From assembly GCA_028571685.1 (NCBI GenBank), contig CM053140.1, positions 153,683,701 through 153,747,700 of the forward strand: 64,000 nt of DNA. Reading direction: 5' to 3'. Each line of letters starts with the position of its first letter. The first letter of the stretch is position 1. Under the pieces are notes generated by a model. The model searched no databases and had not been told where the DNA came from. It saw only the letters and a program-made list of their open reading frames with translations. The stretch comes from Heterohyrax brucei (Eukaryota > Chordata > Mammalia > Hyracoidea > Procaviidae). This document shows positions 3,674-63,525 of the stretch, in pieces. The translations under genes were made by a program, and so were the position numbers.

Positions 3674-4213
3674 TGCCGTTGTTAGGTGCAGTCGAATCAG
3701 TTCCAACTCACAACAACCCTGTGAAAAACAGAATGAAACACCTCCTGGTCCTGTACCATGTCCACAATCATTTTTATGCTTAAGCCCATTGTTGGGGCCA
3801 CTGTGTCAATCCGTCTCCTCGAGGGTCTTCCTCTTTTTTTGTTAACCATCCACTCTGCCAGGCATGATGTCCTTCTCCAGGGACTGATCTTTTCTGACAA
3901 TATGTCCAAAGTGTGTAAGCTACAGTCTTGCCATATTTGCTTCCAAGGAGTACTATGATTGTACTTCCTCCAGAGCAGATCTGTTGGTTCTTTTTGCAGT
4001 CCATGCTACATTCAACATTCTTCTCCAGTACCACAATTCAAAGGCATCAATTCTTCTGTCTTCTTTGTTCATGGTCCAGCTTTCATATGTCTATGATGCG
4101 ATTGAAAATAACACGGTTTGGGTCAGATGCATTTTAGTCTTCGTGGTGACATCCTTACTTTTGAATACTTTGAAGAGGTCTTTTGCAGCAGATTTTTCCA
4201 ATGCAATGCAATG
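3674..4213 (-). mobile_element. RTE LINE, 5'-truncated copy including the 3' end
   Basis: Starts at the RTE 3' terminus ('gttgttaggtgcagtcg', antisense) and runs about 540 bp into the 3' part of the element, ending at 'gcagatttttccaatgcaat'. This is typical RTE 5' truncation. The short antisense frames inside are remnants only. Confidence 0.88.
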
Positions 4214-5502: not shown

Positions 5503-6912
5503 TAGAAAACAATCACAAGTCGTTGCTTATTATTTACTTTTCTCTACTGAACAAATGAACAATTACTACTAGGTTCCACCCAAGAGACAATGGCTTGTCT
5601 TTACAGTATTTGTCTACATCAAGTATTTATTGCAGAATAACATGCAATTTGGTACCTTACTCTCTAACAACTTTTAAATTGTTAAAAGATAAACAATTTA
5701 CCAATTTAAGTTGTTAAATTGATAAAAGAGCATGATCCATGGCATTTTTATGGTATTTAAAGAAGAGTTAGGAAAAAGGAGAGAGATTTTTTTCAAGTCT
5801 AACCAAGTAAAGAGTACTTGCAACCTGAGAGTGCCTACTTTACTCAGTTCTGTTTTACTAACTGAAAATATTTATTAGACCATAGTAAAGTTAGACTCCA
5901 GGGCCTCATCTATCTCCTTGTGTTAAAAGGTGAGCATTACAGAGAAGCTCCGATTAAGTATAGGTGTCATTTTTGTTTCTTACGCACCTCTTTCTTTCCT
6001 GCACAGTCCCCTGAGGGGTGTGAAAATAAACTTACTTAAGACATTTCACAAGAACTGTAAGTAGTACTTCAAGGTGATGTGTTGGTAATTTGGTCACTGT
6101 TACTGTCTTTTCCTCCTCTAAAAATACATCTGATCTTTGCTTATTGTGTCAGTTATTTATCTATTGGTCTCTTAATCTGTGATTAATCTGACAGTATCCC
6201 CAGCACAAATACCGTTAAGTGGTATGAAAAAAAAAAAAAACATGTAAATGAAACAGTGGTCATGGTTGACTAAAAGTAACTTTTCTTTTTCTCCTGTGCT
6301 GAAGGTTAGATCCCACATAAGCCTGCAATGTAACTAGAAGTCCAATCGAACAGTAGTGCAGAACACTTACCGCAAGCACTTTTGAAAGACAAAAATTTGT
6401 GACATAAGGAGTGCACAAAATGGGTGCTTTTAATTTGCAAGTGTATTTGAGAGGAGATTTGGATATTACTTTATTGTTGGTTAATGATTTTATTGTACTG
6501 TGATCAGAAAGTACAATTTGCATAAATTGAGTCATTCTAAATTAAAAAAAGCGAAATCCTTTCTAGCCTCATAGATAAGCATGAGGAGACTCTGTGTGGT
6601 TCAAACAGTGAAGAACTCAGCTACTAACCTGAAGGATAGAGGTGTGGGGTCCACCCAGAAGTCCTTACAAGAAAGGCCTGGTAACCTACTTTGAAAACAT
6701 CAGACCCTGAAAATCCTATCATGTACAGTTTTATTCTGACACACATGAGATCTTTACTCAGATCTCATGGACCAAGATCTTTACCAAAGACCCAGATCTT
6801 TACTCAAGATTCTGTAACTCATGTTCTACTCAACAGCAACTGGTTAGATGGACATGAAGAGACTACATGTCCACTATTTTTCAGGTACCTGTCTGCCTAT
6901 GTACCATCTATC
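5503..6912. other. unique DNA
   Basis: No recognisable gene. It contains an A-run near 6228-6240 and short uninformative open frames. Confidence 0.45.
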
Positions 6913-15937: not shown

Positions 15938-16105
15938 CCAAACCAAAAGCAAAACCCATGCTGTCCAGTTGATTCTGACTCATAGCGAACCTATAAAACA
16001 GAATGCCAAGCCAAAGCCAAGAGTTTCCAAGGAGTACCTGGCAGATTTGAGCTGCCAGTCTTTTGCTTAGCAGATAGAGCACATAATCACCACACCAACA
16101 ATGCT
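15938..16105 (-). mobile_element. AfroSINE, minus strand
   Basis: Tail complement 'ccagttgattctgactcata' to head complement near 'accacaccaacaatgctccc'. The middle contains an odd CCAAG-rich stretch at 16012-16028. Confidence 0.82.
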
Positions 16106-20274: not shown

Positions 20275-20362
20275 AGTGAGTTGAGAAAATGGGTTTGATG
20301 GTAATATTGTTTATCAAATATATAACATAAGGAATAAGATAAACATAGTGGCTTAGTTATCA
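20275..20362. repeat. left arm of perfect 88-bp inverted repeat
   Basis: Exact reverse complement of 20905-20992, read base by base. It is followed after 5 bp by a 90-bp perfect direct repeat. Confidence 0.93.
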
Positions 20363-20544: not shown

Positions 20545-20912
20545 ATGTGTCAGGGATTGTTTTCTCCAAAAATATCTGTCAACTTGGCTAGATCATAATT
20601 GCCAGTACTGTATCATTATTCACCATTTTGTCATCTGATTAAGTTTTCCTGTGTGTTCTCAATCATACCTCTATGATAATGTGGTAGAATCAGAAGTAGT
20701 TATGTTAATAAGGTAACAGTCAATCTACAAGATCAGGTTGTGGGTTTAAGTCAATCTCTTTTGAAATAAAAAGACATAAGAGAGCAAACAGAGAGAGTAA
20801 TCTCTTTCCTGGAAACGACACTCTGAATTTGGACTTCCAGTCTCCTAGACAGTGAGAGAATAAATTTTTCTTTTTTTAAAGCCATCCATTTCTGTTACAG
20901 CACTTGATAACT
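20545..20912 (+). repeat. LTR-like repeat containing the direct-repeat donor
   Basis: Runs from 'ctgtcaacttggctagatca' through 'ggacttccagtctcctagac' and 'gagaataaa' to 'acagcacttgataactaag', an LTR-type pattern with a polyadenylation signal. It resembles the repeat at 28176-28616. 20590-20679 is the source of the upstream direct-repeat copy. Confidence 0.55.
20590..20679. repeat. second copy of perfect 90-bp direct repeat
   Basis: Identical to 20368-20457. It sits in its expected LTR context. Confidence 0.93.
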
Positions 20913-20992
20913 AAGCCACTATGTTTATCTTATTCCTTATGTTATATATTTGATAAACAATATTACCATCAAACCCATTTTCTCAACTCACT
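20905..20992. repeat. right arm of perfect 88-bp inverted repeat
   Basis: Spans the LTR end and its 3' flank. Exact reverse complement of 20275-20362. Confidence 0.93.
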
Positions 20993-25991: not shown

Positions 25992-27756
25992 GGGTAGCAG
26001 AGCAGTGAAAGGAATGTTCCAGGCAGAGGAGCAGCATGGTGAGGTCATGAAGGTGTGAAAACATAAGCTGGATGCAGGACATACCTTCAGTTGGAAGGGA
26101 GAGGACACGCCTGAGTGAGTGGTACAAGCCGCCAGACGGAGAGTAATGATCCTAGCAGCTAATACACACACTTCAATAAAAGTGAGCTTCTATCTTGAGT
26201 TTATAAATGAAATTTATATATTTCTTTGCTAATGTGATATACAGCAATGAACGCCAGAGAGACAGAAAAAAAGATTTCTTCTGAAAGAAGTGGAATCATC
26301 TCAATTCAATGGGCAAAGATTTAAAAAGAAAGAAAAAAACCTAATAAATGTCCTAACATGTTTTTTACCCCTAAAATTATAGCAGAAATGAATAGATTAC
26401 CAAACTTCCTAAGGGAGGAGGATATGTATTTAATCATTATAAATTATACAATTTACAAAGTCTTTGATAGCTGGTCCTAAAATAACCTTAGATTCCCTTC
26501 TGCGGATGAAAGGTCAGGGTCTGTCAGTACGCTCGCCATCAAGCTGAGGAAGGCAGAACTGAAACATTCCTAACATGCTGGAAATAAGGCAGTGTCCTGA
26601 TTTTACCTGCTGGCAGCTAAAGTCCTTCAGTAGATTGGTGTTTGTCTTCTCTAGGGAAATCACCCGAATGCACCTGCCCTCATCAATGTTCCCTTCCTGC
26701 TCCTCTATCCTACTGCCGTGGTTTAGTGACAGGCCTCCTGAAAGATGGTAATGTAACGGGACTGTTACAAAATTAAAGTCCAGGCTGTTTCACTGAAGCA
26801 ATGTATTCAGTTAGATGTCCCGCCTGCTGCTATAAAATACTTGGGAACAAAACACTGACATTATAGGAAACCATCTCAAAATTGTTAGGCCAGGAAATCA
26901 TCGTGTTACTTTTTGGTAAAGTAATAGTTTTTTGACAAAATTATACAAAAATTTTATAACATTTCAATACTTTCTCTGTCCAAGTATATGATTACCTAAT
27001 AATTTATTCAAATAAAATACTGTAATATGTATTTTTAGACATAAAGAATACTATTTTCAAAGTATGATAATTTTTAATCATACTGGGTATAAAAGAATGG
27101 TAAAGCAGATCAAATATAATCCTGTCTTGAAGAACTTTTACTTACTAAAAGATTACAAGTTTACTGAATGAAAAATTCACATGCTAACCTCCTCCGAAAA
27201 ACTAATTTTCATCAGACTTCTCCTTCCACCATAAATAATGCTCATTAAACATGTTAAGTGAAGATATACAGAAAAATAACACAGAACAAAAACTATTTGG
27301 AAACAAATTTTACTTTTTTGTTTGTTTTCAATTCCATATGAAACTCCAGGGATACAGTTTCTAGCTTTTTTTCTGTTCACATTCCAAAGCCAAAACCCCG
27401 AGAATGAATTATTTTAAAAAAAGCTCATCATTTAAAAGTATTTCCCAGATAAAGGAGGTTTATATAAAAGCAAAGACAAAGGATTGAGTCACATGACACC
27501 TACTAACACTTCTGTGATTTATTCTGTAGGCTCAGCACTTGTAGAGGAAAGTTACATCCCCTGAGTGTGTACCCTCCTTTCTTAGGCTTTTTGTCAGAAC
27601 TCAGAGAGCTATGAGTGGCTTCCCTCAAGAAGGTGCAAAATGAACATAAGAATATCTTCTAAAAAGTAAATTATACAAATAATATCTTAATATCCAAGCA
27701 AGGTCACCTCAAGGAAACTGAGTAGCTCCCAGGATAGTGAGAATTGATTATACCCT
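25992..27756. other. unique DNA
   Basis: No gene or repeat recognised. 26,490-26,830 is a little richer in GC than its surroundings. Confidence 0.4.
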
Positions 27757-27767
27757 TGTTAAATTTA

Positions 27768-27805
27768 CCGTGAGTCGGATCCGACTCGACGGCACTTGGC
27801 TTGGC
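27768..27805 (+). mobile_element. ultra-short retroposed unit A (38 bp)
   Basis: The insert contains the palindrome GAGTCGGATCCGACTC and ends GGCACTTGGCTTGGC, i.e. the terminal bases of the RTE/AfroSINE-type 3' end in sense orientation. The 11-mer 'tgttaaattta' flanks it exactly on both sides (27757-27767 and 27806-27816). No poly(A) and no SINE head are present. Retroposition is inferred from the TSD. Confidence 0.85.
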
Positions 27806-28175
27806 TGTTAAATTTACACAACTAACGAAAGCATGGCAGTGAGAAGAGGTGTTGGGAATAGCAAGTTAATGAACCTGGACTCATAGGACACAATTAAATG
27901 AAGCAAAAGTTGAAAGTACCCAATCAAGCCTTACATGAAGAGAGAAAGTCAGAACTGATGGACAGAAGAAAGATTTAACACACCAGCACTAATGGTAAAG
28001 CTTTCAGTTTAGAGGAGACATACATGAGGATGTCGGCATTTTCAGCGTCCCCTTTTATTAATCAGATCAATCCAAAATGAAATAGATTTGTAAGACAGTA
28101 ATTTGATTAACTATTTCTGATCATATTTTCATCAAATAATATTTTTATTATGAGTTATGCTTCCACTTTGTTACA

Positions 28176-28616
28176 TGGTTTAAATTATGTCTCTCAAAAA
28201 TATGTGTTGTAAATGTTAACTGGTACCCCTTTAAATGCAATCCCATTGGGGAATGACTTTTCTCTGTTATGTTAATGAGGTCATATCAATATGCCAAGCC
28301 AAGTGCCGTCCAGTCGGATCCGACTCATATCAATATAGGGTATGTTTAAAGCCAGTCACTTTTTGTATGTAAAAGGAGAAGATTAGGCATAAAGAGAAGC
28401 AAATGGGGATGAGGGAAGCTAGTCCCCAGGCTGCATAAAGATCTCCAAGGAATTGAGGAATAAAAGCTGAAAAGAAATGAATGCCTTTCCTGGTAGCAAA
28501 TAAAGACAAAAAACCTTTCCCTAGAGTCAGCATCTTGAGTTAGGATTTCTAGCCTTCCAAATTTATAAGAAAATGCAATTTTTTGCATAAAATTTAAACT
28601 CACCTTGTTATAGTTA
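28176..28616 (+). repeat. LTR-like repeat, split by ultra-short unit B
   Basis: Begins 'catggtttaaattatgtctc', includes 'ctgttatgttaatgaggtca' and ends around 'agccttccaaatttataaga'. It resembles 20545-20912. The target of unit B is within it. Confidence 0.55.
28293..28324 (-). mobile_element. ultra-short retroposed unit B (32 bp)
   Basis: On the plus strand it starts GCCAAGCCAAGTGCCGTC and contains the CAGTCGGATCCGAC core. It is flanked by perfect 12-bp repeats 'tcatatcaatat' (28281-28292 and 28325-28336). Its right boundary is ambiguous by a few bases, because the unit itself may end in CTCAT. Confidence 0.87.
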
Positions 28617-29315
28617 GGTGTCATTCACTTTGTTTCATCTCGTACTGACCCTATGTGAAACACAGTAAAAAACTGCCGGGTCCTGCCCAGTCCTTACGAT
28701 CGCTGTTATGCTTGAGCGCATTGCTGCAGCCAGTGTGTCAGTGCATCTCCTTGAGAGCTTTGCTCTTTTTCACTGACCATCTGCTTTACCAAATATGATG
28801 CCTTCTCTAGGGACTTACCTCTACTGATAATGTGTCCAAAGTATGTGAAATACATAGTCAAAACAGCCTGGTACTGGCATACAAACAGATACATAGATCA
28901 ATGGAATGGAATTGAGAATCCAGTTAGAACATCATCCACCTAGGAACAGTTGATATTTCACAAAGGTGCAAAGTCTGTAAACTGAGGAAAAGACAGTTCT
29001 TTCATAAATGGTTTTGGCATGACTCGGCATCCATCTGCAAAACAAGAGAAAAAGAAAAGAAATAAAGGAAGGAAGAGAGACCCGGAGGGAGAGAGGAAGG
29101 AAGGAAAAACCATATCTCACACTATTCACAAAAACTGACTCAAAATAGATCAAAGACCTGAATATAAAAGCTAAAACAATAAACATGATGGAAGAAAAAA
29201 CAGAGACAATTCTGAGAGGTCTAAAACAGACTACAAAATATTACTAACAATGCACAAACACCAGAAGAGAAAACAGGTAATGAAAAAGTCCTAAAAAGCA
29301 AGCAGGAGGTATAAT

Positions 29316-29834
29316 AATTAAGTCCACAAACTTAATTATTTCAAGTGCTATGTACCTCATAGCTGAATATCCCTACACATGCTCCCCTTGGGAAGCTATG
29401 CCTCAATGCCAAGGCCTAATCCACCCTTCATAGCAATTTTAGAACTTTTTCTGGAATGGCTATTTAGCACAGAGGCATGGCAGCAAGTTCACCAACTTGT
29501 CTTTGAGGGAGTTTTTAGCCAAGAAACAGTTAATGTGTTGGAATACCCTGCTTGCTCACCTGATCTGGCCCCCAATGACTTTTTTCTTTACACAAAGATA
29601 AATACTGAAGGAAAGACATTTTGATGACATTCAGGACATCAAGGGTACTATGACAACAGCTCTAATGGCCATTCCAGAAAAAGTTTCAAGATAGTTGTGA
29701 AGGGTAGACTAGGCACTAGTGTTGGTGGATAGCTTCCCAAGGGGAGTACTTCAAAGGTGACCATAGTGATATTCAGCAGTGTGGCATGTAACACTTTTTC
29801 TAGGATGAGTTTGCAAAATTAATTTTCAGTCCTC
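29316..29834 (+). mobile_element. mariner, internally deleted, C-terminal transposase remnant
   Basis: Terminal parts 'taattaagtccacaaac' and 'ttttcagtcctcatata' flank about 520 bp inserted into L1 ORF2. The plus-strand frame 29379-29624 includes the mariner catalytic-region signature SPDLAPNDFFLY, followed by decayed C-terminal sequence. Most of the transposase is absent. Confidence 0.85.
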
Positions 29835-31265
29835 ATATACTCATCCAAAGACTTCACCAAAAGAATAAAATGACTGGGAAAGAATTTTTGGCTGCCATAA
29901 ATCAGTGTCTATTCAGTATCCAAATCAGTGTCTGACCTACAAGGTACTTGAAAATCTCAACCAGAAAAAGACAAAAAACCCAATTAAAAAAATGAACAAA
30001 GCATGTAAATAGACATTTCAGTAAAGAAGATATACAGGATGCTAACAGATATGTGAGGAAATGCTATGATCATTACCTGTTAGAGAAATCCAAGTCAAAA
30101 CTACAATGAGATGGCATTTTACCCCAATAAAGCTGGCATTAACCCAAATAACACAAAATAATAAATATTGGAGAGGCTGTGGAGAGATTGGAACTCTTCT
30201 GCACTGCTGGTGGGATTGTACAATGGTACAGTTACTTTTGAAATCGATTTGGTGCTTTCTTAAACAGCTAGAAATAGACACACTATAAGATCCAGCAACC
30301 CCACCCCTTAGAATATGTCGTACAGAAATAAGGGCTGTTATATCAATAGTTATATGCACACAAATGTTTATTTCAACACTGTACACAATAGCAAAAAGAT
30401 GGAATCAACCTATGCATTGATCAGTAGATGAATGGATAATCAAACTAGGGTATGTTCACACAATGGCATACTATGCAATGATAAAGAGCAACAATGATTT
30501 TAGGAAACATAACATGGAGTCATCTGGAAGACATTATGCTAAGTGGAATTAGTCAATTGCAAAAGGACAGATATTGTATGAGACCATGATTATAAGGACT
30601 TAAATGATTAAGCACAGAAGAAAATAGTCTCTGATGTTTACAAGGGTGGGGAGGAAAGGAGAGGAGTATTCATAGATTACATAGTAGGAATGGGGTCAAT
30701 TAAAGTTTGTGACAGCACACAGTAGAAGGGAGGTTAGCATAAGCTTCAGTAAATACAGCCCAACATTTTGAAGGACAGAGTAGCAGGGACAGGAGTCTGG
30801 GAACTATGATTTCAGGAGATATCTAGGCTAACTGGTATAACTAAGGTTTTTTAAAGAAAATGTTCTGCATACCACTTTGGTGAGTGGCCTCTGGGGTGTT
30901 AAAAGCTAGCAAGCTGCCATCTAATTAGCACAAATTGGTCCCAATCTTCCTTTATCAGAGGAAAAGAAAGGACATCAAAGATGTTAGCGAAATATGAGCG
31001 CAGGAGACAGAAGGGGCCATGATCAGGAGACTACATCAGTGTGAAACCAAAAGAAATAGATGGTGTTTGGCCACCACCAATTACTGCCCTGACAGCAAAC
31101 ATAACATAAAGTCCTTGATGTAGCAGGAGAAAAATAGATGTGTAGAACTAGAACTCTATTAAAAGATGAAACTTGATGATACATCGTACTGGAGGGTTCC
31201 CTGAGAACATGGCCCCTTCTCCCTCTGTTAACCCAGAACTGAAGCCAGTACCCGAGCCAACTCTT

Positions 31266-32759
31266 TTTTTTTATTTTTATTTAACATAACTGAGTGAAAA
31301 TGTACATTCACATGTAAATTTACATGCCCACCTATATGCAGCTTCCACTGCTCTCCCTGTCCGGTGACTGCACACTATTCCTCTCTGCTCCATACATGTC
31401 TCATCCTCCCAACAGCCTCCTTTCCCCTCCTCTCCGTCCACTCCCCTTTCTCCAGCCAGAGGTCAGTAAGATGATATCCTATAGATGTATAGAACCATAA
31501 AGCGCTTCCAATATATGGTCACTCTGCATTGCCAAGTCCAATCCATTCCTGTCCAAAGAGTGGACCTTTTTTATAATTTATGGGAAAGGGCAGCATCAGG
31601 GCAGGGGGCCATGCTCTCAGAGGAACCCCAAAACCGCTGGACCATCAGTTGAGGTGTTTTAGTGGAGATCTCATGTTGCACCCTTTTTATTCTTGTGTTG
31701 CCAGTGAGACTCCTCTCTGTGAGCTTCATCGTGGCTATCACTGGTGGTGGCCGGGCTGTTTTGACCACTGTGGCAGTGTAGTATGTTCTAAGGTCGGGTA
31801 ATGAGAGGCCTCCCAGTGTGTTCTTCTTCTTTAGTAGTACCTTACTTATCCGGGCTTCTTCCCTTTCCGTGATTTGTTTCTCCGTCCCATTAAAAAATGA
31901 TGCTGTATCTTGTATTGGGATTGCATTATATAAATAAATTGCTTTGGGTAAAATAGACATTTTCACAATGTTAAGTCTTCCTATCCATGAGCAGGGTAGG
32001 TTTTTCCATTTATCTAAGTCTCTCTTAGTTTCTTGTAGTAAGGGCTTGTAGTTCTCTTTGTAAAGGTCTGTTGTTTCTCTGGTTAGATTAATTCCTAGGT
32101 ACTTTATCTTCTTAGGGGCTACCGTAAATGGTATTGATTTGATAATTTCCTCCTTAACAGTCTCGTTGTTGGTATAAAGGAATCCTACTGATTTACTTAT
32201 GTTTATCTTGTATCCTGAGACTTTGCTGAACTCTTCTATCAGTTTGAGTAGCTTACTTACAGATTCCTTGGGGTTCTCTGCATATACAATCATATCATCT
32301 GTGAACAGGGAGATTTTAACTTCCTCTTTGCTGATGCAGATGCCCTTTATTTGTTCATCTTGTCTCATTGCTCTGGCTAGAACTTCTAGCACAATGTTGA
32401 ATAGGAGAGGTGAGAGTGGGCATCCTTGTCTAGTTCCTTATCTCAAGGGAAAGTCTTTCAGTCTCTCTCCATTCAGGATGATGTGGGCAATTGGCTTTGT
32501 ATAAATGGCCCTTATTGTGTTGAGGAATTTGCCATCTATGCCCATTTTGCTAAGAGTTTTTAGCATGAATGGGTGTTGGACTTTATCAAATGCCTTTTTG
32601 GCATCAATGGACAAAATCAGGTGATCCTTGTCTTTTGTGTTATTTATGTGGTTAATCACATTAATTGTTTTCCTGATGTTGAACCAGCCTTGCATCCCTG
32701 GTATGAATCCCACTTGGTCATGATGGATTATTTTCTTGATATGTTGTTGTATTCTGTTG
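31266..32759 (-). mobile_element. L1 LINE, truncated and internally deleted, perfect 14-bp TSD
   Basis: 'ccgagccaactctt' lies on both sides (31252-31265 and 32760-32773). The insert opens with a T-rich tail complement and contains L1 3' UTR (to about 31,750) joined directly to the ORF2 reverse transcriptase region; roughly the C-terminal third of ORF2 seen in the 52876-58485 copy is missing. It sits inside the L1 3' UTR of 28859-33072. The preserved TSD and long open frame make it one of the younger elements here. Confidence 0.92.
31571..32392 (-). pseudogene. L1 ORF2 fragment, 273 open codons
   Basis: Longest open frame in the window. It encodes the part of L1 ORF2 around the reverse transcriptase catalytic box (reads F-T-D-D near its start, where F-A-D-D is usual) through the downstream INISKS and [22 protein letters not shown] segments. 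The frame then crosses the internal-deletion joint near 31,751, so its last ~60 residues are former 3' UTR in a chance frame. It lacks the endonuclease and the N-terminal reverse transcriptase, so it cannot act alone. The length of the open frame reflects recency rather than selection. Confidence 0.88.
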
Positions 32760-32845
32760 CCGAGCCAACTCTTAAATGATTGGACTGTGCCATAAGACAT
32801 AGAGTTATGCTGCTGAAGGGTATGCTTCTTGACCTGAAGATACAT
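32438..32845 (-). pseudogene. L1 ORF2 upstream fragment, frameshifted from the next
   Basis: Antisense frame carrying the L1 reverse transcriptase N-terminal blocks, including [19 protein letters not shown] and [16 protein letters not shown]. It is one frame off from 31571-32392, so a single indel near 32,440 separates them. Codons beyond 32,759 belong to the host L1 3' UTR and are not ORF2. Confidence 0.85.
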
Positions 32846-33202
32846 ATAAGGCTGTCTGAGAAGTTCTTATCCAGAGGCTAGCTGAAAGGGTGAAAGGGGA
32901 GAGGAGCTGGTCGAGCACATGCAGAATGTATAGGGTAGAAAGAAGGAAAGTGCTGTCATGGAGAGTCTGTAAGACAGCAGTTACAGTTGCATAGTGGTGT
33001 GAGCATACAGTTCCATATGGCAAATTAATATGATTGAAACTTTCACTTAAAGCATAAAAACTTTTTATTTAAGGATATGAGACAAAGTCTCAGCATCTTT
33101 GTTTCTGAGGAGCAATCTGGCTGTACTTCCTACAGGGCAGATTTACTCCTTCTTTTGGCCCTCCATGGTGTATTCAATATTCTTCACCAACACAATAATT
33201 CA

Positions 33203-33242
33203 AGCCAGCCAAGTGCCATTGAGTCGGATCCGACTCATGGCG
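33203..33242 (-). mobile_element. ultra-short retroposed unit C (40 bp)
   Basis: The plus strand reads AGCCAGCCAAGTGCCATT, then the perfect palindrome GAGTCGGATCCGACTC, then ATGGCG. It is flanked by 'aataattca' at 33194-33202 and 33243-33251. It has inserted into the RTE piece at 33073-33750 and so is younger than that copy. Confidence 0.87.
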
Positions 33243-33751
33243 AATAATTCAGAGGAGTCAATTATTACTTGGTCTTCTTTATTCACGTATGTGAGGAAAT
33301 GGAAAACATCATGGCTTGACTCAGGTGCACCTTAGACCTTTACACGGCATCTTTGCTTTTCAGCACTTGAAAGAGGACTTCTGCAGTGGATTACCTAGTC
33401 CAGTGCATTGTTTCATTCTTTGACTGCTGCTTCCTTGGATGCCAATTTCAGACCCAAGTGGAAGGAAATCTTTGACAACTTCAATCTTTTCTCCACTTAT
33501 CATGATATTGCTTATCATTCCAGTTGCAAGAACTTTAATTATCTTTATGTTTAGCTGTAATCCATACTGAAGGCTGTGGTCTTTGGTCTTCAGAATTAAG
33601 TGCTTCAAGTCCTCTTCACTTTCAGCAAGTAGGACTGTGTTATCTGTGTATCTCATGTGGTTAAGGAGTCTTCCTCCAATCCTGATGGCTCATTCTTTTT
33701 CATATAATCCATTTTCTCTCAGTACTTTGTCAGCATACTAGTTATATGAGG

Positions 33752-34318
33752 ACTGCCAATTAAGCTCACAAGCTCATCTTAGAAAAACTGCTACATACCT
33801 CACTGCTGAATAGCACTGTGGTCACCTTCAAAGTACTCCCCTTGGGAAGTTATGCACCAATGCCAGTACCTAGTCTACCTTCTAAAGCACACTGGAAACT
33901 CTTTTCCTGCAGTGGCCATCAGAGCTGTCATCGTATTACTCTTGATGTCCTTAATGTCCTCAAAATGTCTTTCTTTCAATATTTCCTTTATCTTCAGGTA
34001 AAAAACAAACAAACAAACAAAAAACATTGGAAGCAAGACCAGGTGAGTAGGAGGGGTGTTCCAATACAGTTATTTGTTTACTAGCTAAAGTTTCTCTCAT
34101 AGACAACTATACACGTAAGTTGGTGAACTTGCCACCGTGCCAGCATATACAATGGCCATTCAAGAAAGAGTTCCAAAATTGCTTTGGAGGGTGGAGTAGG
34201 CCCTGGTGACAGCGTATAGCTTCCCAAGGGGAGTACTTGGAAGGTTGCCATAGTGATATTCAGCAATGAGATATATAGCACTTAGAACAACTAAGTTTGA
34301 GGCCGTAATTGTTGGACC
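33752..34318. mobile_element. mariner, internally deleted (~565 bp)
   Basis: Left terminal part 'atgaggactgccaattaagc'. The interior has the same two blocks as the copy at 42131, with the large transposase middle missing. The right end is decayed around 'aactaagtttgaggccgtaa'. Confidence 0.83.
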
Positions 34319-35285
34319 TTGTATAAGAAAACAAACTTTAATAATTACAAGGGTGGGGACCAAGAAGGATATTCATTGATTAGGTGGTAGGTAGAAATTA
34401 TTTTAGATGAAGAGAAGGACAAGGCACAATACAGGACAACACAGAATACAGGACAAGTTAAGACAAATGGGCTACACAAGCAGCTATGAAATTTTTTAAA
34501 TACAATCAAACAGCTTGCAGGACAGAATTGGAGGTGCAGGAGTTCTGGTGATCATGTTTCATCTAGGTCAACTGTCATAAAAAAATTTGGTTTTTGTCAT
34601 AACAAAACCATTACTTTGGTGAGCTGTGTCTGAGATATTAAAACAAAGCAAGCAGCCATGTAAGATGTATCAACTAGTTGCAACCCACCTGGAGCGAAGG
34701 AGAATAAAGAATACCAAAGGCATGAGGAAAATATGATCTCAAGAGGCAGAAAGGCCACATATGCCAGAGATTGCATCAGGTGACACAGGAAGAAGTAGAT
34801 GGTGACCAGCTACCGCAAATGACTGCCCTGACAGGGAACTTACCAAAGATCTCCTGAAGGAATAGAGGAAACGTAGAGTGCAGAATTTGAACTCTAGTAA
34901 AAAGACCAGACTTTATGGCCTAACAGACTGGAGGGGTCCTAGAAGACAGGGTCCCTGGACTCTGTTAGCCCAGAACTCAAACCATTCTTGAAGTCAGCTC
35001 TTCAAACAAAGATTGAACTGAACTATACGATATGATACCGGTAAAGAGTGTGGTTCTTGGTTTAAGTAGATACATCAAACTAACTGGGAAGCTCCTGTCT
35101 GGAGAGAAGATGAGAAGGCAGAGGGGTGCAGGAGCTGGTTGAATGCAGATGGGAAACACACAGTGGGGAGGAGGAGTGAGCTATCACAGTGTGGGGAGAA
35201 CAACTAGGGTTGCATAATAGTCTGTGTATAAGTTGTATGAGAAACTTTCACTTAAAGCATAATCAATTTTTTTTAGAAAAGAAAA
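34319..35285 (+). mobile_element. L1 LINE 3' UTR copy
   Basis: Parallels 30625-31265 plus 32774-33072 and 60965-61928 (shared 'actttcacttaaagcataat' near the end). ORF2 is absent, so it is severely 5'-truncated or cut by the adjoining mariner. Confidence 0.82.
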
Positions 35286-35419
35286 AAACAATCCCTACAA
35301 ACTAAAGCAAATCATTAAAATTAAAATAAAAAAAAAAAGCCTACATGGATCGCAAGTGAGTATTGTCTGAAGTATTACAGAGAGGTGAGCCCCCTAGGTT
35401 GCAAGTCACCCAGAACACA

Positions 35420-35560
35420 CTGTGGCCAAAGCAATGGACTCAGACATGCCAAGGATCATGAAGATGGTGAAAAATCAGCAACGTTTTGTTCTGCTGTGCA
35501 GGGGAAACTCATAAGCTGGAACTGGCTTGACGTCATCTAAGAACAGCAATATTATCTTTT
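35420..35560 (+). mobile_element. RTE LINE 3' end, sense orientation
   Basis: 'acgttttgttctgctgtgca' and 'ctggaactggcttgacgtca' are the sense form of the RTE 3' terminus. Short and diverged. 35,286-35,420 is not resolved. Confidence 0.65.
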
Positions 35561-35664
35561 CAGGAGACACAATTTCTACTACAGTCAATGGACATTGCTT
35601 CATGAGGTGCTGTCTGTGTAGGATCTAATTTTCCCAGCAGGTTTTCTACATACAACCTAAATTA

Positions 35665-35790
35665 GCCATGCTAACCAAAAAAACGAAAGAATGTTGGCAG
35701 TTTGAGTCCATCAGGGACTCCTTGAAAACTATGGGCAGCTCTACTCTGGCTTATGGGGTCACTATGCGTCAGAACTGACAGAAAAACAAT
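35665..35790 (+). mobile_element. AfroSINE, partial plus strand
   Basis: Lacks the head. Starts near 'gctaaccaaaaaaacg' and runs to the tail 'tatgcgtcagaactgacag'. Confidence 0.75.
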
Positions 35791-36485
35791 TCTTTTTTTT
35801 TGAAGATGTGATGGATACACAGCCTTGGAAAGCAGCTGCCTAGTCTTAAATGTTAAGAAAAGCTAAACTTAAGGACATCTGGAAGAAAGAGTTTTCTTCA
35901 ACAGACACACCCAAACTCTTTTCGTTTGCTGATCACCATGCTTCTTAAATGGGAGGCTCTCTATCTTACTATGGCAACCGACAGGAGCCAGGATCACAAC
36001 ACTGAAGTGACTAATTCAAAGACTGATGTCATCCCAAAGAAATCAGAATTTTTAAATCCTGTTTTACGTACCAAAGTTCCTCTCTATACCTCTTCAGTCT
36101 GGTAAACACGGTAGCCTAAATTTTGTGGGACCATTTTTTTCATTCCTTATCACTGCCTTGGAGTCACAAGCTTTATAAATCATCTTGGGTTGAAGAGCTT
36201 TATAAATTATCTCTTTGATATTACCCCCAGAAAGCCAATGAGCAAGAATATTTTTTAGTGGAGTTTGTCCACAACCACGTTGGAGAGTAAACCTAATGTC
36301 ACTGTGTTGTTTTCTTTTGACATTACGCTTGATGATGTTATTCATTCAAGTTCAATAAGGTAGATGGGAACCTGACATAAAAAGGCATGCAGATAACAGC
36401 TAAGGTGCAATTAATTACTTAACATGACCCTTCTGGTTATAGCTCCGTAACTCACTCACAATGATTGCATACAACTACGCAAACA
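35791..36485. other. unique DNA
   Basis: No gene or repeat recognised. Confidence 0.4.
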
Positions 36486-36524
36486 GCCAGTGAAGCCAAG
36501 TGCTGTCTAGTTGGGTCTGACTCA
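36486..36524 (-). mobile_element. ultra-short retroposed unit D (39 bp), diverged
   Basis: The plus strand reads GCCAGTGAAGCCAAGTGCTG, then a decayed core (GTTGGGTCTGAC). Flanks are 'tacgcaaaca' (36476-36485) and 'tatgcaaaca' (36525-36534), a 10-bp TSD with one mismatch. This is the oldest-looking of the four units. Confidence 0.72.
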
Positions 36525-36549
36525 TATGCAAACAAGATGTATGAAATCT

Positions 36550-36965
36550 GTGATGGTTTCTGACAACTTGACTAGGCCATGATTTCTAGCATTATATTGG
36601 AGTCCTTCATTTTGTGATCTAATTATCCTCTCTATGCACGTGGTTATGTCAATAACGCAAGAATAGGGATGTATCTTGAGTCACCACTTTTCTAGAGAGT
36701 GCAATTCAAGTCACCATCTTCTCCAGCAGGGGGAGAATGTACTCTACATCAAATGCATGTGAATATTCTGGGAAAGTTGTCTCACTCTGGATTCTGCATC
36801 TGGGTCGTGATCATCTGACTTCAAGTTCTCGGCACTTGAGCCAGCATCCTACTGTCTGTCCTACTGACTCCGGGATTCACCAGCTTCCACAGCCCCTTGA
36901 ACTGATAAATCAGCTTCCACAGCTTTACAATACAGTAGCCTCATTTAGACTATTGCTTTGAGTTT
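36550..36965 (+). repeat. LTR-like repeat, partial
   Basis: Begins 'gtgatggtttctgacaactt' and 'gactaggccatgatttctag'. Similar to the start of 20545-20912 and to other old mammalian LTR patterns. Contains repeated 'cagcttccacagc' words near 36,880-36,920. Low certainty. Confidence 0.4.
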
Positions 36966-37254
36966 GTCAAGCAGTTGTGCGGGTCAGGAGAAGCCTCCAA
37001 TCTGACATCATACTCACATATTTTGGACTTTCCAACTTCTGCAAGCATGTGAGCCATGTTTTTAAGATATAGCACATGAGTTCTGTGAGATGCTGCAGTG
37101 AATTACAGAAGCCAAGGATGGAAAAGACAGTATTGAAGGTGGGAGGAGGAGTAGAAGACACATGATGGAGTGAAACAGCAGTTGGGGACAGTTGGACATT
37201 TTGGACATCATTAATCTCCACCTCACAGGAGCCAGCTTTATGCTGGTTCCTATG

Positions 37255-37790
37255 GAGTGTCTTAGTCTGTGTTCTCTGGAGGAGTAAAACCAGCGCAGGA
37301 CATATAGAAATTTGTGAATAGAAACATTCACTTCAAGGAAATGGCTCATACAACTGTGAGAGGTCCTAAGTCCAAATCTGTGGGTTAGGCGGCAGAATGA
37401 AGACTTCTGCTTGTTGACATGGTTGCAGGAGCCTATGAACCAAAACTCTGCAGGTCAGGTAACAGGCAAGAGGCCTCTGCTGACTCCTAGTTTGGGAGAT
37501 GGATAGACTCAAAATCTGCAATTCAAAAGATTTCTGAAGGCTTACATCCCAAGAACCAGAGATAAGGCAAAGAGATGATTGCAAGATTCAGAGAGTGAGA
37601 GCCCTGCTAGAACATCCATTTACATACTGGAGGCAGACTACACCCTCAAGGAAACATCCTTGTCATCTAATTGGCTGATTACATCAGATCACACCACAGA
37701 AGTGATTACATTATGTAAAAGCAATCAGTTCAATGTCTGGAAAACTAAGGAGAATCATTGTCTAGCCAAGCTGACACACACCATTAACTA
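37255..37790. repeat. possible old LTR/ERV-derived segment
   Basis: 'gtcttagtctgtgttctctg' onward has the look of an interspersed repeat. No family assigned and no coding content. Confidence 0.35.
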
Positions 37791-39221: not shown

Positions 39222-40500
39222 GTTGTGAGGTGCCGTTGAGTTGGTTCCAACTCATAGTGACCCTATATACAACAGAACAAAACACTGCCTGGTCTTGCAC
39301 CATGTCCATAGACATTTTTATGCTCAAGACTGTCATTGAGCCCACTATGTCAGTCCATCTTGTCAAGAGTGTTCCTCTTTTTTGCTGACCCTTCACCCAC
39401 CCTATCAAGCATAATGTCCTTCTCTGGGGACTGATCTTTCCTGATAACATGTCCAAAGTATGTAGAACACAGTCTTGACATTTTTGTGCTTCCAAGAAGC
39501 ACTCTGGTTGGACTTGTTCCAGAACAGATCTGTTTGTTCTTTTGGAAGTCCAGGGTAATTCCATATTTTTCTCCAACACCACAATTAAAAGGCATCAATT
39601 CTTCTGTTTTCCTTGTTCATTGTCCAGCTTTTGCATGCATATGATGGGAGATTGAAAATATGACTTGGATTAGGCATGCTTTAGTCTTCAAGGTGACACC
39701 TTCACTTTTCAATACTATAAAGAGGTCCTTTACAGCAGATTTTGTCAATGCAACACACCTTTTGATATCTTGACTGCTGCTTCCATGGGCATTGATTGTG
39801 GACCCAAGTAAAATGAAATCCTTGACAACCTCAGTCCTTTATCCATTTATAACAATGTTGCTTACTGGTCATAAGACTGTGAAGATTTTTATTTTCTTGA
39901 TATCGAGCTGCAATCCGTACTGAATGCTGTTGTCCTTGATTTTCATCCCTAAGTGTTTCAAATCTTCTTCATTTCCAGCAAGTAATGTGGCGTCGTCTGC
40001 ATAAAGCAGGTTGTTAACTAGTCATCCTCCAATCCTGATGTCTCGTTCTTCTTCAGCAAATCCAGCTGTTCAAATTATTTGCTAGACACACAGATTGAAA
40101 ATGTATGGTGAAAGGATACAACCCTGATGCACACCTTTCATGACTTTAAACCATGCAATGTTCCCTTGCTCTGTTTGCATAATTGCCTCTTGATCCATGT
40201 ACAGATTCCTTAAGAGTACAATTAAATGTTCTGGAATTCCTATTTTATGCAACGTTAACCATAATTTGTTGTGATCCACACAGCTGAATGCCTTTGCATA
40301 GTCAAAGAAACAAAGGTAAACATCCTTCTGGTATTCTCTGCTTTCAGTCAAGATCCAGTTGACATCAGCAGTGATGTCCCTGGTTCCACATCCTCTTCTG
40401 AATCCATCTTGAATTCCTGGCAGTTCCTTGTCAGTATACCGTTGCAGGAGCTTTTGAATGATGCTCAGCAAAATTTTACTTGTGTGTGATGTTAATGATA
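39222..40500 (-). mobile_element. RTE LINE, 1.28 kb 5'-truncated copy with reverse transcriptase core
   Basis: Runs from the RTE 3' end ('gttgtgaggtgccgttgagt') to the middle of the reverse transcriptase. The catalytic Y-A-D-D codons are intact in antisense at 39992-40003, though the frame around them is broken. The copy is colinear with 43369-44600. Confidence 0.92.
40082..40471 (-). pseudogene. RTE reverse transcriptase fragment, 129 codons
   Basis: Antisense frame with the non-LTR reverse transcriptase blocks in order: QDGFRRGCGTRDI, then FFDYAKAFSCVDHNKLW (which carries the first catalytic aspartate), then the GVHQGCILSPYIFNL block. This order and wording are characteristic of the RTE/BovB clade. 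The frame ends before the Y-A-D-D box, which lies downstream in another frame. No endonuclease is present because the copy is truncated. The open frame is a relic. Confidence 0.9.
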
Positions 40501-40723
40501 TTTTTTGGTAGTTTCTTCATTTGGTTAGATTACTTTTCTTTTAATGGGCATAAATATAGATCTCTTATAGTCACTTGACCAGATAGCAGTCCTCCAAATA
40601 ATTTTTTTTAATTTTGTAGAAAATAACTGTGTAGCCCTCTGCAATCACTTTAAATGTTTCTAAAATATGTAGTATTCAGAGAAATAGGAAAGTAAAAAAT
40701 TAGAAAATGAATTACCCAGTAGT

Positions 40724-43368: not shown

Positions 43369-46300
43369 TTAGGTGCCATCAAGTTGATTCTGACTCACAG
43401 AGACCCCATGTATAACAGAATAAAATCCTGTCTGATTCAGTGTCACACCCACAAGCATTTTTATGCTCGAGCCCGTTGCTGCAGGCGCTGTATCAATCCA
43501 TTTCACTGTGGGTCTTCTTTTTCTTTGCTTATGCTCTACTTTACTAATCATTGTGTCTTTCTGCAGGAGTTGATTCCTCCTAACAACCTGACCAAAGTAT
43601 GTAAAATGTAGTCTCACCATCCTCGCTTCTAAGAAGCACTCTGGTTGGGCTTCTTTCAAGACAGATCTGTTAGTTGTTTTGGCAGCCCATGGTAGGTTTA
43701 ATATTCTCCAGGACCACAATTCAAAGGCTTCAATTCTTATTCTGTCTTCCTTATTCATTGTCCAGCTTTCACATGCACACGATGCAAATAAAATTATCAT
43801 AGCTTGGATTAGAAGCACCTTATTCCTCAAGACAACATCTTTGCTTTTCAACATTTTAAAGAGATCTTTGAGCCAATTTTTCTAACCCAACAGCTTTTTT
43901 TTTTTTGCTATTAACTGCTGTTTTCATGGGTGTTGTTGACTCAATAAAATCAAATCCTGGACAAACTAGATCTTGTTTTCATTTATCATGATACTGCTTA
44001 TTGGTACAGTTGTGAAGGTATTTTTTTTTCTTGATATTGAAATGTAACCCATACTGAAGGCTGCGGACTTTGATCCTCAACAGTGTTTCAAGTTCTCTTT
44101 ACTGTCAGGTGAACAAAGTTATGTTGTCTGCATAACGCAGTTCATGAGTCTTCCTCCAATCCTGATGCCCCATTCTTCTTCATATAGTCCAGTTTCTTGG
44201 TTTGTTCAATTGCCACACAGATTGAATAGATATGGTGAAAAAATACAACCGTGACTTGAACCTTTCCTGACTTTAAACTGTGCAGTGTCCCCATGTTCTG
44301 TTCAAATGATTACCTCTAGATCCATGTACAGATTCCTCATGAGTACAACTATGTGTTCTGGAATTCTCATTATTGACAATGTTATTCAAAATCTGTTATA
44401 ATCCAGTCAAATGTCTTTGTATAGTCAATAAGACACAAGTAAACATCTTTGTTGCCTTCTCTGCTTCCAGTCAGGTTCCGACTGACATCAATGATATCTG
44501 GTTCCACGTCCTCTTCTGAATCTGGCCTAAATTTCTGAGAGCTCCCTGTCAATATACTGTTACAGCTGCTTATGAATGATCTCCAGCAAAAATTTACCAG
44601 TGTGTGTGATATTCCTAAGATTGTTCAATAATTTCCACATTCAGTTGTATCACCCTTCTTGGGAGTAGGAATAAATACGGAATTCTTCCAGTCAATTGGC
44701 CAGGTAGCTGTCCTCCAAATACTGTGGCACAGATGAGTGAGCACTTCCAGTCCTGCTCCTGTCTGGTCGCAATTGATACTCCATCAATTCTGGGAGTTCT
44801 GTTTTTTGCCAATGACTCCAGTGCAACATCAACTTACTCCCTCAGTTTCATCGGTTTCCGGTCATATGTTGACTACCTTTTGAAATGGTTGACAGCTGAC
44901 TAGCTTTTTCTGATATAAAGAATTTGTGTATTGCTTCTATTTTCTTTTGATGCTTCCTCTGCTTTAATATTTTCTCTGTAGAATGCTTCACTATTGAAAC
45001 TTAGGGCTTGAATTTTTTTTTCTTCAGTTCTTTCGGATTGAAAAATGCAGAGTATGTCCTTCCACTTTAGTCTTCCATCTCCAACTCTTTGTACTATCAT
45101 TTTAATACTTCTTTTTGCCTCGGGAGCTGCACTTTGAAATCTTCTGTTCAATCCTTTTACTCCATCATGCCTTCCTTTTGCTTTAGCAACTCAGTGTTCA
45201 ACAGCAAGGTTCAGAGTCTATTCTGATATCCAAATTTCATCTTTTCTGTCTTTTTTATGACCTTTTGTTTTCTTCATCTGTGATGTCTTTCTCCGATATC
45301 TTTCTACAACTTATCTGGACTTCAGTCATTACTGTTCACTGAGTCGAATCTTTTCATGAGATGGTCTGTGAACTCAGTTGGGATATACTCAAGGTTGTAT
45401 CTTGGCTATGTGGACTTTTCCTAATTTTCTTCAGCTTCAATTTGAACTTGCATATGAGTAATTGATAATTTGTGCCTCAATTGACACATGATCTTGTTCT
45501 GACTGATGATATTGAACTTTTCCACTTTTAATTTGCACAGATGTGGTCAGTTTAATTCCTATATATTCCTCCTGGTGAACTCCACATGTATTGTCACTGT
45601 TTATGTTTACAGTGAAGAATTCATTGGTCTTTCAAAATTCTACCATGTGATCTCTGGTATCATTTTTATCACCAACCATACTTTCCAACTACCAATCCTT
45701 CTTCTTGGTTTCCAACTTTTACGCTGCAGTCACCAGTAATCATCAGTGCATCCTGACTGCGTGTTCGATTAGTTTCAGATTGTAGAAGCTGGCAAAAATC
45801 TTAATTTCTTTGTCTTTGGCCTGATTAGTTGGTGTGCAAATCTGAATAGTAGTCACATTAATGAGTCTTTCCTGTAGATGTGAGTATATTATCCTTTTAC
45901 TCACACTGTTGTACTTCAAGATAGAGCTTGAAATATTCTTTTTGGTGATGAATACAACACCATACCTCTTTGCCATTCCTGGCATAGTAGACCACATGAC
46001 TGTCTAATTCAAAATGGATAGTACCAGTGCATTTCAGCTCACTAATATCTCAAATATCAGTGATTGTGCAGTCCATTTAATTTTTGATGATTTCCAATTT
46101 TCCTAGATTCATACTTCACACATCCCATATTCCAATTACTAGTGAATATTTTCAGCTGTTTCTTGTCATTTCGAGTCTTGCCACATCAACAAATGAAGTT
46201 CCCAAAACCTTGACTGCATTCATGTTAAAGTCAACTCTACAAAGGTAGCTCTTTCCAGTTCTCTTTTGAGTTCCTTCTAATCTAGGGGATTCATTTTCCA

Positions 46301-52333: not shown

Positions 52334-52875
52334 ATTGTTGTCATTGATAGGTGCCGTCCAGTTGTTTCTGATTCATAGCAACCTTTTGCACAACATAATG
52401 AAACATGGTCCAACCCCACACCATTGTTGCAGCAACTGGGTCAACTCATCTTCTTGAGGATCTTCCTCTTTTGGACTGACCCTCTACTTTACCAAGAATG
52501 ATGTCCTTCTCCAGGAATTGATTCATTTTAACAACATGGCTAAAATATATAAGATGCAGTCTTGCCATCCTTGCTTCCAAAGAGCATTATGGTTGAACTT
52601 CTTCTGGAGAAGACTGATTTGTTCATTGGGCAGTCCATGATACAGCCGATATTCTTCTCCAAAGCCATAATTTATAAGTGTCAATTCTTCTTTGGTCTTC
52701 CTTATTCATTGTCCAGCTTTCACATGAATAAGATGCTATTGAAAAATACCAAGGACTGGGTTAGGTGTATTTTAGTCTTCAAGGTGACATTCTTACTTTT
52801 CAACACTTTAAAGAAGTTTTTCTTTTTTTTTTTTTTTTGCAGATATTGCCAATGCAGTGTGTCCTTTGATTTCTT
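52334..52875 (-). mobile_element. RTE LINE, 5'-truncated copy
   Basis: Begins at the RTE 3' end ('ataggtgccgtccagttgtt') and stops at 'gtgtcctttgatttct', about 540 bp in, close to the truncation length of the 3674 copy. Confidence 0.88.
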
Positions 52876-58683: not shown

Positions 58684-60964
58684 GGCAATCAGCTCTTTGG
58701 CACTGGCTTGTCACCCCAACAAGGCTGCCATTCATCCAATAAAAGCCCATCAGATGAAGAATCACTAGCGAGGCTGAGACAATGGAAGATCTCCATGCAC
58801 ACAAGATGAAGGAAAAATGATAGAAGCCTTTTGGAAGACCATTTGGCACTTCCTTAGAAAGCTGAAAACTGAAAGAGCTCCTGATGCAGCAATCCTGGAT
58901 TTTTGGAAGATAGTCTGAAGCAATAAGAGCCACCAGGCTGAGATATGAGGACTGAACTATCTGTTCCAATAGCATTGAGTTTGTTTTTGCTTTCACAGGG
59001 CCGAGGGGTATCTCGCTGCCATTTTCCTCTGTGTTTCTCCTCCAGCTGGTGACAGAATGCATTTGTGCACATCTCTTAGCTGCCCAAAGGGCTTATTTTG
59101 TGAACCATCTCTTCCTGTCCTTTACCCCGTTTTCAGGTGGCTTATTCACCTGTTTGCTGCTGAGGGTGGGTGGTATCTTCTGGCTTATCAAAGGGAGATG
59201 CTGATTGAATTCATGGCAGCCCAATTCCTTCTGTCCAGACTCCAGGCAGTCATTGCACTCTTTGGGTGAGATCTTGGGAGAAGCATCAGTGAAGCTTTGA
59301 TGATTCTTCAGGTCTCAGTGATCTACCCTCTCTTTTGCTTCAGTCCGATGTTGGAATCTCTGTATGTCTTTGTAAGGCGGCTCTCAGAAGTTGTCCCTAC
59401 TGCTGCATCCATGATCTTTCCAGTGTGAGATTGGACTTTCAGCTCTCTGACCCATTTGGAAGGGGTTTTGGTGTGCACATTCTATGAGACTCAGGTGTTG
59501 TTTGCTGCATTTTGGGGCAGGTGGATATCCAGTTACGCAGTGTCTTTGTTAAAGAAACTGATTTTTCTCCTCTTTTCGCCCTTTGGGCCTTCATTGAATG
59601 TCAGCTCTGGGCAGTGCTGGGTGTGATGGTGGGGACAATTATCTGTCTGGATCCTCCACAGCGGTCCCTTCGTCTACGTGTGTTTCCTGTAGCAGTGGCA
59701 GGTGACTTTTATGACTGCCACGGCACTCAGTGCTCCAGTAAGGTAGCATGCATCCTCCCCGCTCAGGTCTTCTTCACCATTCCTTTGCTTACCCAGTTCC
59801 CCTTCCCTTTCCCTATGAAGTCCGCGATTTCTTGCTCCCTCTCACTACATCACTGGGATCGTGTTGGCACTGCCTGGTATCTCTAGAGCTTTGTGTAGAA
59901 CAGACATTTTGACAGCGTTGAGCCTCCATGACCCCGAGCAAGGGCAGTCTTTCCACTTAGGCTGGGCTCTTTTGCTGTCCTGCCGCGGGATCTTTGACTT
60001 GGCTGGGTACACTGCTTTTCCATCAGTGGTGAGCTGTATTCACATGTATTTTATCTTCTTGGGGGCAACTGCAAGTTACATAGATTCGAGGAGTTCCTCC
60101 GGAGCACTCTCTTTGTGGGTGTAGAGCAATCCAGCTGATTGGGGTCCCAGACCTGCTCATGAAGTTCCCGATCTCCTTCCAGAAAAAGGGCTACCCACCT
60201 CGGGGCTGAGTATCACCACAACAGTCACCTTCAAAGTACTCCCCTGGGGCAGCTGTGCACCGCCAGCCAGCAGCACTTTCTCTGCCCGTCAGAGTCATTT
60301 TGGAACTCTTTCTGGGATGGCCCATGGGCCCGCGGCGCAAGGGCCGTCTGGCGAACTTCCCTGCAGGGATCTCGGAGCCTGAAAACAACCAACCTTCGGG
60401 ACTACCTGACTCCGTCCTCTCCCTTCCCCCCACGACCTTTCTCTTGCCTCATTATCAGAAGCTACAGGAACTGCTGAAAGGAAGACCTTTGGATGTCATT
60501 CAGGAAGGAAGACAATTGCTGGCCGTAGGACGGCGGCTTGGAAAGCCATCCCAGAAAAAAAGAGTTCCCAACTTGCTTGGAAGCATGGACCAGGTGCTGG
60601 CGTCGGCGCTGAGCTTCCTGAGGGCAGTCCTTGGAGAGGGACCCAAGTACTAGTCAGCAAGGAGCTAGGGAGCACTTTCTCCGAGGACGAGTGTGCGCAC
60701 CTAATGGGCAGTCCTCCTCTCTCTTGGCCTGGTGGCTCTTATTGCTCCAGGCTATCTTCCAAGAAGCCAGGATTGCTGCATCACGAGCTCTTTCGGTTTT
60801 CAGCTTTGGAAGGAGGGGCCAAGTGGCCTTCCCAAAGGCTTCTATCCTTTTTCCCTGCCTGCAGTCCACGCAGAAGTTTTCCAGTGTCTCAGCCTCACTA
60901 GCTTTTTCTTGGACGCATGGCAGCCTTGCTGGGGTGACAAGCCGGTGCCATCGAGCTGATTCTC
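58684..60964. mobile_element. GC-rich fold-back composite of L1 and mariner remnants
   Basis: Outer arms at about 58684-58950 and 60712-60964 are imperfect inverted repeats of one L1 ORF2-end segment. The interior has antisense L1 ORF2 (about 59,100-60,180) and an internally deleted mariner (about 60,185-60,712, ending 'taatgggcagtcctcctc'). The whole block is visibly richer in GC and CpG than all other DNA in the window, including other copies of the same elements. Its open frames of up to 132 codons are GC-driven chance. Confidence 0.75.
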
Positions 60965-61928
60965 ATTCCTAGAGACCCTTCAGATGTTGGTCGATTAGAT
61001 AGCAATAGGCTTTGGGTAGATTAAGGGAGGCACAACATGTTCAGCATGTCTGCATTAAATCAAAACCTATGAAGTTTCCTAAATATGACTCTACTCTTTG
61101 AAGGACAGATTAGCAATTGCAGCGATTTAGGGACCATAAGTTCAGGGTTCATCTACATCAGTCAGCATAAGAAAGTTTTTTCTTTTTCTTTTTTTTTTTT
61201 TAAAGAAAGTGTTCTGCATTTCACTTTGGTAAGAAGCTTCTGGGGTCTGAAAACCTAGTTAATGACCATTTAAGTAGCATCAGTTTGTCTCACCCCACCT
61301 GGAATAGAGGAGAAGGAAACACATCAGACATAAGGGAAATTTAAGACCAAGAGACAAAAAGTGTCATACAATCCAGAGACTACAGCTGCACGAGACCAGA
61401 AAACTGGATGGTACCCAGCCACCACCAATGACTGCCTTGACAAAGAACACAGTCCCTGATACAGCAGGAGAAAAATGAGAGTACAGAACTAGAACTCTAC
61501 TAAAAGACTACATCTGATGATCTGTCGGACTGGAGGGTCCCAGGAGTTCATGGCCACTCAACTCTTTGTTAGCTCAGAGGTGAAACAATTCCCAAAGCCA
61601 ACTCTTCATATAAAGATTAGACTAGACTATAAGACATGAAATGATGCTGGCAAAGAGTGCGCTTCTTGGCTTAGATATGTTCATGATGCTAACTGAGGAG
61701 CTCCTGTCCAGAGGCAAGATGAGAGGGTAGAGGGGGACAGGAGTTGATTGAATGGATACAGTAAATACAGGGTGTAAAGAAGTAGTGTGTTTTCACAGTG
61801 TGAGGAAAGTAGTTTGAGTTACACTCCTGTGTATGCAAGTTTTTCTGTGAAAAATTAACTTGGATTGTACACTTTCACTTAAAGCACAATGAAATACTTT
61901 TTCAAAAGTAATGAAAAATAATATAAAA
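60965..61928 (+). mobile_element. L1 3' UTR of the composite
   Basis: Parallels 30650-31265 and 34330-35285, including 'gaaagtgttctgcatttcac' and 'tttcacttaaagcacaatga', and ends in an A-rich tail directly before the right TSD. Confidence 0.87.
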
Positions 61929-63480: not shown

Positions 63481-63525
63481 TAAAAGAGAATAGAGACAAG
63501 AGTTTCACCTGAGCCTCTGGTTGTA

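Follow-up and report, generated by a model that had tools for sequence, protein, structure and literature searches.

Four short retroposed inserts of 37, 32, 40 and 39 bp, each bounded by its own direct repeat, were found in a 64-kb stretch of Heterohyrax brucei DNA (contig CM053140.1; the whole stretch is referred to as the window). These inserts, labelled units A to D and described in sense orientation, are minimal headless insertions of the RTE type, and their status as real insertions was confirmed. All four have a common layout, consisting of at most six bases, a GAGTCGGATCCGACTC-like palindrome, the word GGCACTTGGC or AGCACTTGGC, and a short TGGC-rich end. The units and their target-site duplications (TSDs) are the following:

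27757-27768 and 27806-27817, + strand: TSD of unit A, TGTTAAATTTAC, 12 bp
27769-27805, + strand: unit A, 37 bp; perfect palindrome GAGTCGGATCCGACTC at 27772-27787, tail GGCACTTGGCTTGGC at 27791-27805
28281-28292 and 28325-28336, - strand: TSD of unit B, 12 bp, TCATATCAATAT on the + strand
28293-28324, - strand: unit B, 32 bp; palindrome with one change, the unit starting inside the palindrome
33194-33202 and 33243-33251, - strand: TSD of unit C, 9 bp, AATAATTCA on the + strand
33203-33242, - strand: unit C, 40 bp; perfect palindrome, within an old RTE copy
36476-36485 and 36525-36534, - strand: TSD of unit D, 10 bp with 1 mismatch, TACGCAAACA on the + strand / TATGCAAACA
36486-36524, - strand: unit D, 39 bp; older copy, palindrome with 4 changes and both palindrome CpGs decayed

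The coordinates and repeats that an earlier note on this DNA had assigned to B, C and D were reproduced, whereas unit A was found to start at 27769 and to have a TSD of 12 bp, not 11. The description of the palindrome as perfect in A and C and altered in B and D agrees with the units as delimited here. Unit starts span about 8 nt at the 5' base of the hairpin: relative to the trinucleotide GAG, C starts 6 nt upstream, A 3 and D 1, and B starts 2 nt inside. The ATGA expected ahead of GTCGG in unit B is common to its TSD, a possible 5' microhomology, and when these bases are included B starts 2 nt upstream of GAG. Junction microhomology reaches up to 4 nt in B and is at most 1 nt in A, C and D, which corresponds to the chance level. 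With regard to the targets, the same seven bases, ATACCCT, lie ahead of the TSD in A (27750-27756, +) and B (28337-28343, -), which may reflect a target preference; C and D have only C/T-rich endings at this place (TCCTC and CATCT).

Evidence of insertion into an empty site was obtained for unit C, which interrupts an old copy of an RTE long interspersed element (LINE). After removal of the unit and one TSD copy, the joined flanks were aligned to the rest of the window, and the alignment extended over the junction in five other RTE copies, which display the empty site. Two of these paralogues align gap-free throughout (230-346, 70% over 117 bp; 52547-52708, 70% over 162 bp), and in the other three (3909-4194, 39456-39864 and 43595-44038) a gap is absent at the junction. 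No paralogue spanning the junction of A, B or D was found in the window, and the demonstration of an empty site is therefore confined to C.

The frequency with which comparable repeats arise by chance was estimated at random window positions with a slop of +/-4 bp. The frequencies were 0.0002 for an exact 12-bp repeat and 0.001 for an exact 9-bp one (20000 trials), and 0.007 for a 10-bp repeat with at most one mismatch (10000 trials). In addition, a blind scan for any exact direct repeat around an insert of 26-48 bp, in which the window was compared with 60 resampled sequences, revealed no general excess of repeats of at least 9 bp (13 in the window vs a resampled mean of 15.3), which weakens any claim made from the TSDs alone, and a mild enrichment of repeats of at least 12 bp (3 in the window vs a mean of 0.5 and a maximum of 3), two of the three matches being A and B and the third, tandem-like, lying at 6748. 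The TSDs carry weight because their positions coincide exactly with the boundaries of units that are related to one another, and not through their rarity. The match at 6748-6806 consists of a 33-bp insert, itself holding AGATCTTTAC, between exact copies of the 13-bp direct repeat AGATCTTTACTCA; it looks like a local tandem duplication and contains no unit of the A-D kind.

A profile built from the four units was found to match the 3' ends of long RTE/AfroSINE copies in the window (best E 1.8e-5), in line with the assignment of the units to this type of 3' end in the earlier note. Its further proposal that the units lack polymerase III (Pol III) boxes also held: in every unit, the best matches to the box consensus disagreed with it at 3-5 of the 9 positions, and ARAGORN detected no tRNA in 27000-37500. 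Since they have neither upstream element sequence nor Pol III boxes nor a tRNA, the units were not filed as short interspersed elements (SINEs). A piece of reverse transcriptase (RVT_1, E 1.3e-17) is present at 40082-40516 (-), upstream of an RTE end at 39230, and we infer that both belong to one copy; the piece itself is presumably RTE, as judged from that downstream RTE-type end and from the features of the family. According to PMC5322556, retroposition in afrotherians is dominated by RTEs, with AfroSINEs being coretroposed.

The units differ from the longer copies in what lies upstream of the hairpin. The profile yielded 50 matches, namely the four units and 46 others, of which 35 formed the set with E <=5. 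Nine of the latter were left out: five mirror readings of palindromes (33220+, 27787-, 28312+, 25970- and 39237+), three matches judged by eye to be unrelated (44491-, 24826+ and 62003+), and 60992+, which is a weak AfroSINE-like end rather than a mirror reading and was counted as ambiguous in the later test. This left 26 ends, comprising the four units and 22 others. Upstream sequence was compared with two consensus strings that had been composed by eye from copies in the window, with a null drawn from the same window, and the test is therefore partly circular for the long copies. No similarity to RTE or AfroSINE was detected upstream of the hairpin in the units (P 0.17, 0.69, 0.69 and 0.93), whereas 19 of the 22 other ends had such similarity at P<0.01, the remaining three being ambiguous (P 0.03, 0.03 and 0.17). 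When all 46 non-unit matches were considered, upstream similarity at P<0.01 was found in 23 (the same 19 plus 35760+, 41055+, 21405- and 24206-), seven were mirror readings, and 16 were without similarity. The 16 are for the most part apparent chance matches (E 0.8 to 23), and decayed short ends could be among 60962-, 19882-, 42699+, 60992+, 6826+ and 24826+. Two weak AfroSINE-like ends lie on opposite strands within 80 bp at 60937-61012 (profile E 0.8 and 3.0). Throughout the 64 kb, no copy combining upstream element sequence with the unit tail was found by the tail and profile searches, both of which ignore length.

The units also share letters that were not seen in the long copies. A scan for the palindrome with up to 3 mismatches gave 6 matches vs 0.02 expected, three in units A, B and C and three in long copies; unit D, with 4 mismatches, lies beyond this limit. 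Within the window, the palindrome centre GGATCC is restricted to A, B and C, as is GGATCCGAC, which is missing from D. Scanning for the tail word with up to 3 mismatches gave 6 matches vs 1.09 expected, i.e., the four units and two hairpin-free places. The word CACTTGGC likewise occurs six times in the window, in the four units and at 24552 and 60818, both outside any listed hairpin, and in none of the 22 other ends. Thus, diagnostic letters common to the units and not seen in long copies do exist, the GGATCCGAC part holding for A, B and C. An AfroSINE copy at 15959-16014 (-) carries CTTTGGCTTGGCA upstream of its hairpin, which resembles the unit tail (12-nt match to B).

Twenty copies taken from the 26 ends were aligned, four having been left out for indels in the hairpin (22998-, 21813+, 7083+ and 22416+) and two as weak (60962- and 42699+), so that 16 of the 22 other ends enter the CpG count. 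The palindrome CpGs are intact at all six sites in A-C, at 0/2 sites in D and at 0/32 sites in the 16 long copies, where 29 of the 32 read TG or CA. By this CpG measure, A-C look younger than the 16 long copies. Hairpin identity ranges from 0.71 to 0.96 among the units and has a mean of 0.67 among the 16 long copies. The interpretation given in the earlier note thus finds partial support, and it is plausible that A-D constitute a distinct family.

Target-primed insertion by the RTE machinery, with a complementary DNA (cDNA) ending at the palindromic terminal hairpin, is the origin that we favour with modest confidence. Its support consists of the related sequence of the units, one TSD for each, the lack of detectable element sequence upstream, and the empty-site match of C. 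The machinery of an RTE-clade LINE would act on an RNA ending in the RTE/AfroSINE terminal hairpin and a short TTGGC-type tail, a use of this hairpin by RTE that we infer, and the four units would represent four independent target-primed insertions. Reverse transcription would begin at the tail, copy the hairpin and stop within a few bases of its 5' base. As the proposed cause of this stop, the new cDNA would fold back on itself at its near-perfect palindrome, which would prevent further extension. The end of the cDNA would then be joined to the target, sometimes via microhomology. Units formed in this way would be little more than the recognition hairpin plus tail, and may be near the smallest template that such machinery can use.

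As regards the hairpin itself, A and C are predicted to fold into a stem that takes in the outer bases and one unpaired base, with the outer stem starting at the first base of the unit or one base inside. The fold of unit C (-17.1 kcal/mol, z -3.08) is the only one that stands out from shuffles. Over the 20 aligned copies, pairing (75.9%) exceeds that of every slid version (22-41%). The hairpin is accordingly supported as a consensus feature and not by covariation, since the slid versions were exceeded and the shuffled ones were not. The A-U to G-C difference in the outer stem between A and C was considered as a compensatory change and found no support over all copies. Fold-back (snap-back) synthesis was likewise considered as the origin of the palindrome and is disfavoured, because a simple fold-back copy would also duplicate the unpaired base that separates the palindrome from the outer stem, and in A and C this 3'-arm base has no partner in the 5' arm.

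Several results weigh against target-primed insertion with a stop at the hairpin. The fold of unit A does not stand out from shuffles (-11.7 kcal/mol, z -1.00; -14.0 kcal/mol, z -1.36 with one flanking C), and the predicted folds of B and D do not contain this hairpin (z 0.05 and 1.39). Neither pairing (75.9% vs a column-shuffle mean of 76.9%) nor covariation (0.218 vs 0.223 in shuffled data) was in excess over the 20 copies. Stops at the hairpin should also leave some longer siblings that carry this tail, and no such copy was seen in the window. Furthermore, the Tn-TA insertion signature, which PMC13295347 reports for Bov-B and likens to that of an elephant RTE family, is not evident: in the four sites, read by eye, T^A lies at the nick in B only. 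Finally, the evidence comes from four units in one window, all within 8.8 kb. Such clustering of four units in 8.8 kb of the 64 kb exceeds expectation (P 0.009), and extrapolation to a genome-wide number is therefore unsafe.

The missing long siblings are better explained if the template was a discrete source RNA of 35-40 nt, cut or transcribed from the base of the hairpin, so that every insertion would be full length. All four hairpins bearing this tail are indeed short, with no longer copy found in 64 kb, and the palindrome CpGs are kept in A-C and in none of the 16 long copies. However, the unit starts scatter across about 8 nt, a raggedness that a fixed 5' end of the RNA does not by itself account for; there is no known promoter or source locus; and the junction of unit B permits microhomology, as the junctions of truncated copies do. 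Such a short source RNA is considered fairly unlikely. Truncation at the 5' end is usual for LINEs, and random 5' truncation of a young, longer RTE/AfroSINE subfamily with the CACTTGGCTTGGC tail, the longer members of which lie outside the window, would also produce short copies. The earlier note had argued against random truncation from the similar length of the units and their starts just before the palindrome. The clustering of starts was borne out, all four falling within about 8 nt, and the units also contrast with the other ends in being short in 4/4 cases vs 0/19 clear other ends (Fisher 1.1e-4), although this test is post hoc, because the idea of grouping the ends in this way came from the same window, and is weaker when the three ambiguous ends are counted as short (2.3e-3) or the fourth weak end, 60992+, is added (4.0e-3). 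A young source is nevertheless plausible, since PMC11292518 describes AFRO_LA as an AfroSINE type that diverged more recently and may have undergone a recent expansion in manatee. Taken together, random truncation appears unlikely. An origin without retroposition, either as filler DNA captured at breaks or as a fold-back DNA transposon, would suit the palindromic core and the very small size, but TSD lengths vary from 9 to 12 bp, the tail common to the units is asymmetric, and the units are related to the 3' ends of RTE/AfroSINE copies, all of which makes this explanation highly improbable.

Usual repeat annotation has a lower size limit. It is conceivable, albeit doubtful, that an afrotherian genome holds a large, recently active and unannotated population of 32-40 bp hairpin-plus-tail retroposons, the smallest natural LINE substrate, produced through either a hairpin-fixed stop or a small-RNA template. 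If such units were common, they would show how small an RNA an RTE-clade LINE is able to insert, provide a natural readout of the stop position of RTE reverse transcriptase, reveal a hidden layer of insertions below the annotation limit, and supply presence/absence markers for afrotherian phylogeny. If rare, they would still be clean, very short target-primed insertions, with an empty site in the case of C.

Two further features were noted in the window: a perfect 88-nt inverted repeat (20275-20362 and 20905-20992, spacing 542 nt), and an open frame of 126 amino acids at 63484-63864 (+) that resembles, by eye, a decayed retroviral protease region. Beyond the window, neither the unit pattern nor the AfroSINE hairpin pattern had a match in the viral-contig and genome-contig collections; the tail word alone matched 8 viral contigs, which were taken as chance matches of 17 fixed bases. 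A literature search of limited coverage found no description of such units, and no claim is made that they are absent from print.

Among known systems, the closest relatives by sequence are AfroSINE and RTE1_LA of afrotherian mammals, which have the same terminal hairpin and the same GGCA start of the tail as the units. The units differ from them in the lack of a SINE head or any LINE sequence ahead of the hairpin, in the CACTTGGC tail, which is found in all four and not beside the hairpin of other copies, and, for A-C, in the GGATCC palindrome centre and an apparently younger age. The Bov-B LINE and Sauria SINE (PMC13295347) similarly combine an RTE-clade LINE with a SINE partner, tails of short repeats instead of poly(A), and TSDs; in contrast, Tn-TA is not evident in A-D, and the units lack a SINE head. 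Tailless retropseudogenes (PMC5322556) are likewise TSD-flanked pieces of retroposed RNA with preferred breakpoints related to structure, but they are 3'-truncated and tied to L1, whereas the units are of the RTE type, keep the 3' end and lack the 5' part. Stringent-type LINEs, represented by eel UnaL2 (PMC3747384) and zebrafish LINEs (PMC4176376), belong to other LINE clades and resemble the units in having a 3' stem-loop and short terminal repeats, features linked to template recognition. Compared with these stringent-type elements, the unusual feature of units A-D is that they are natural insertions made only of the stem-loop and the tail.

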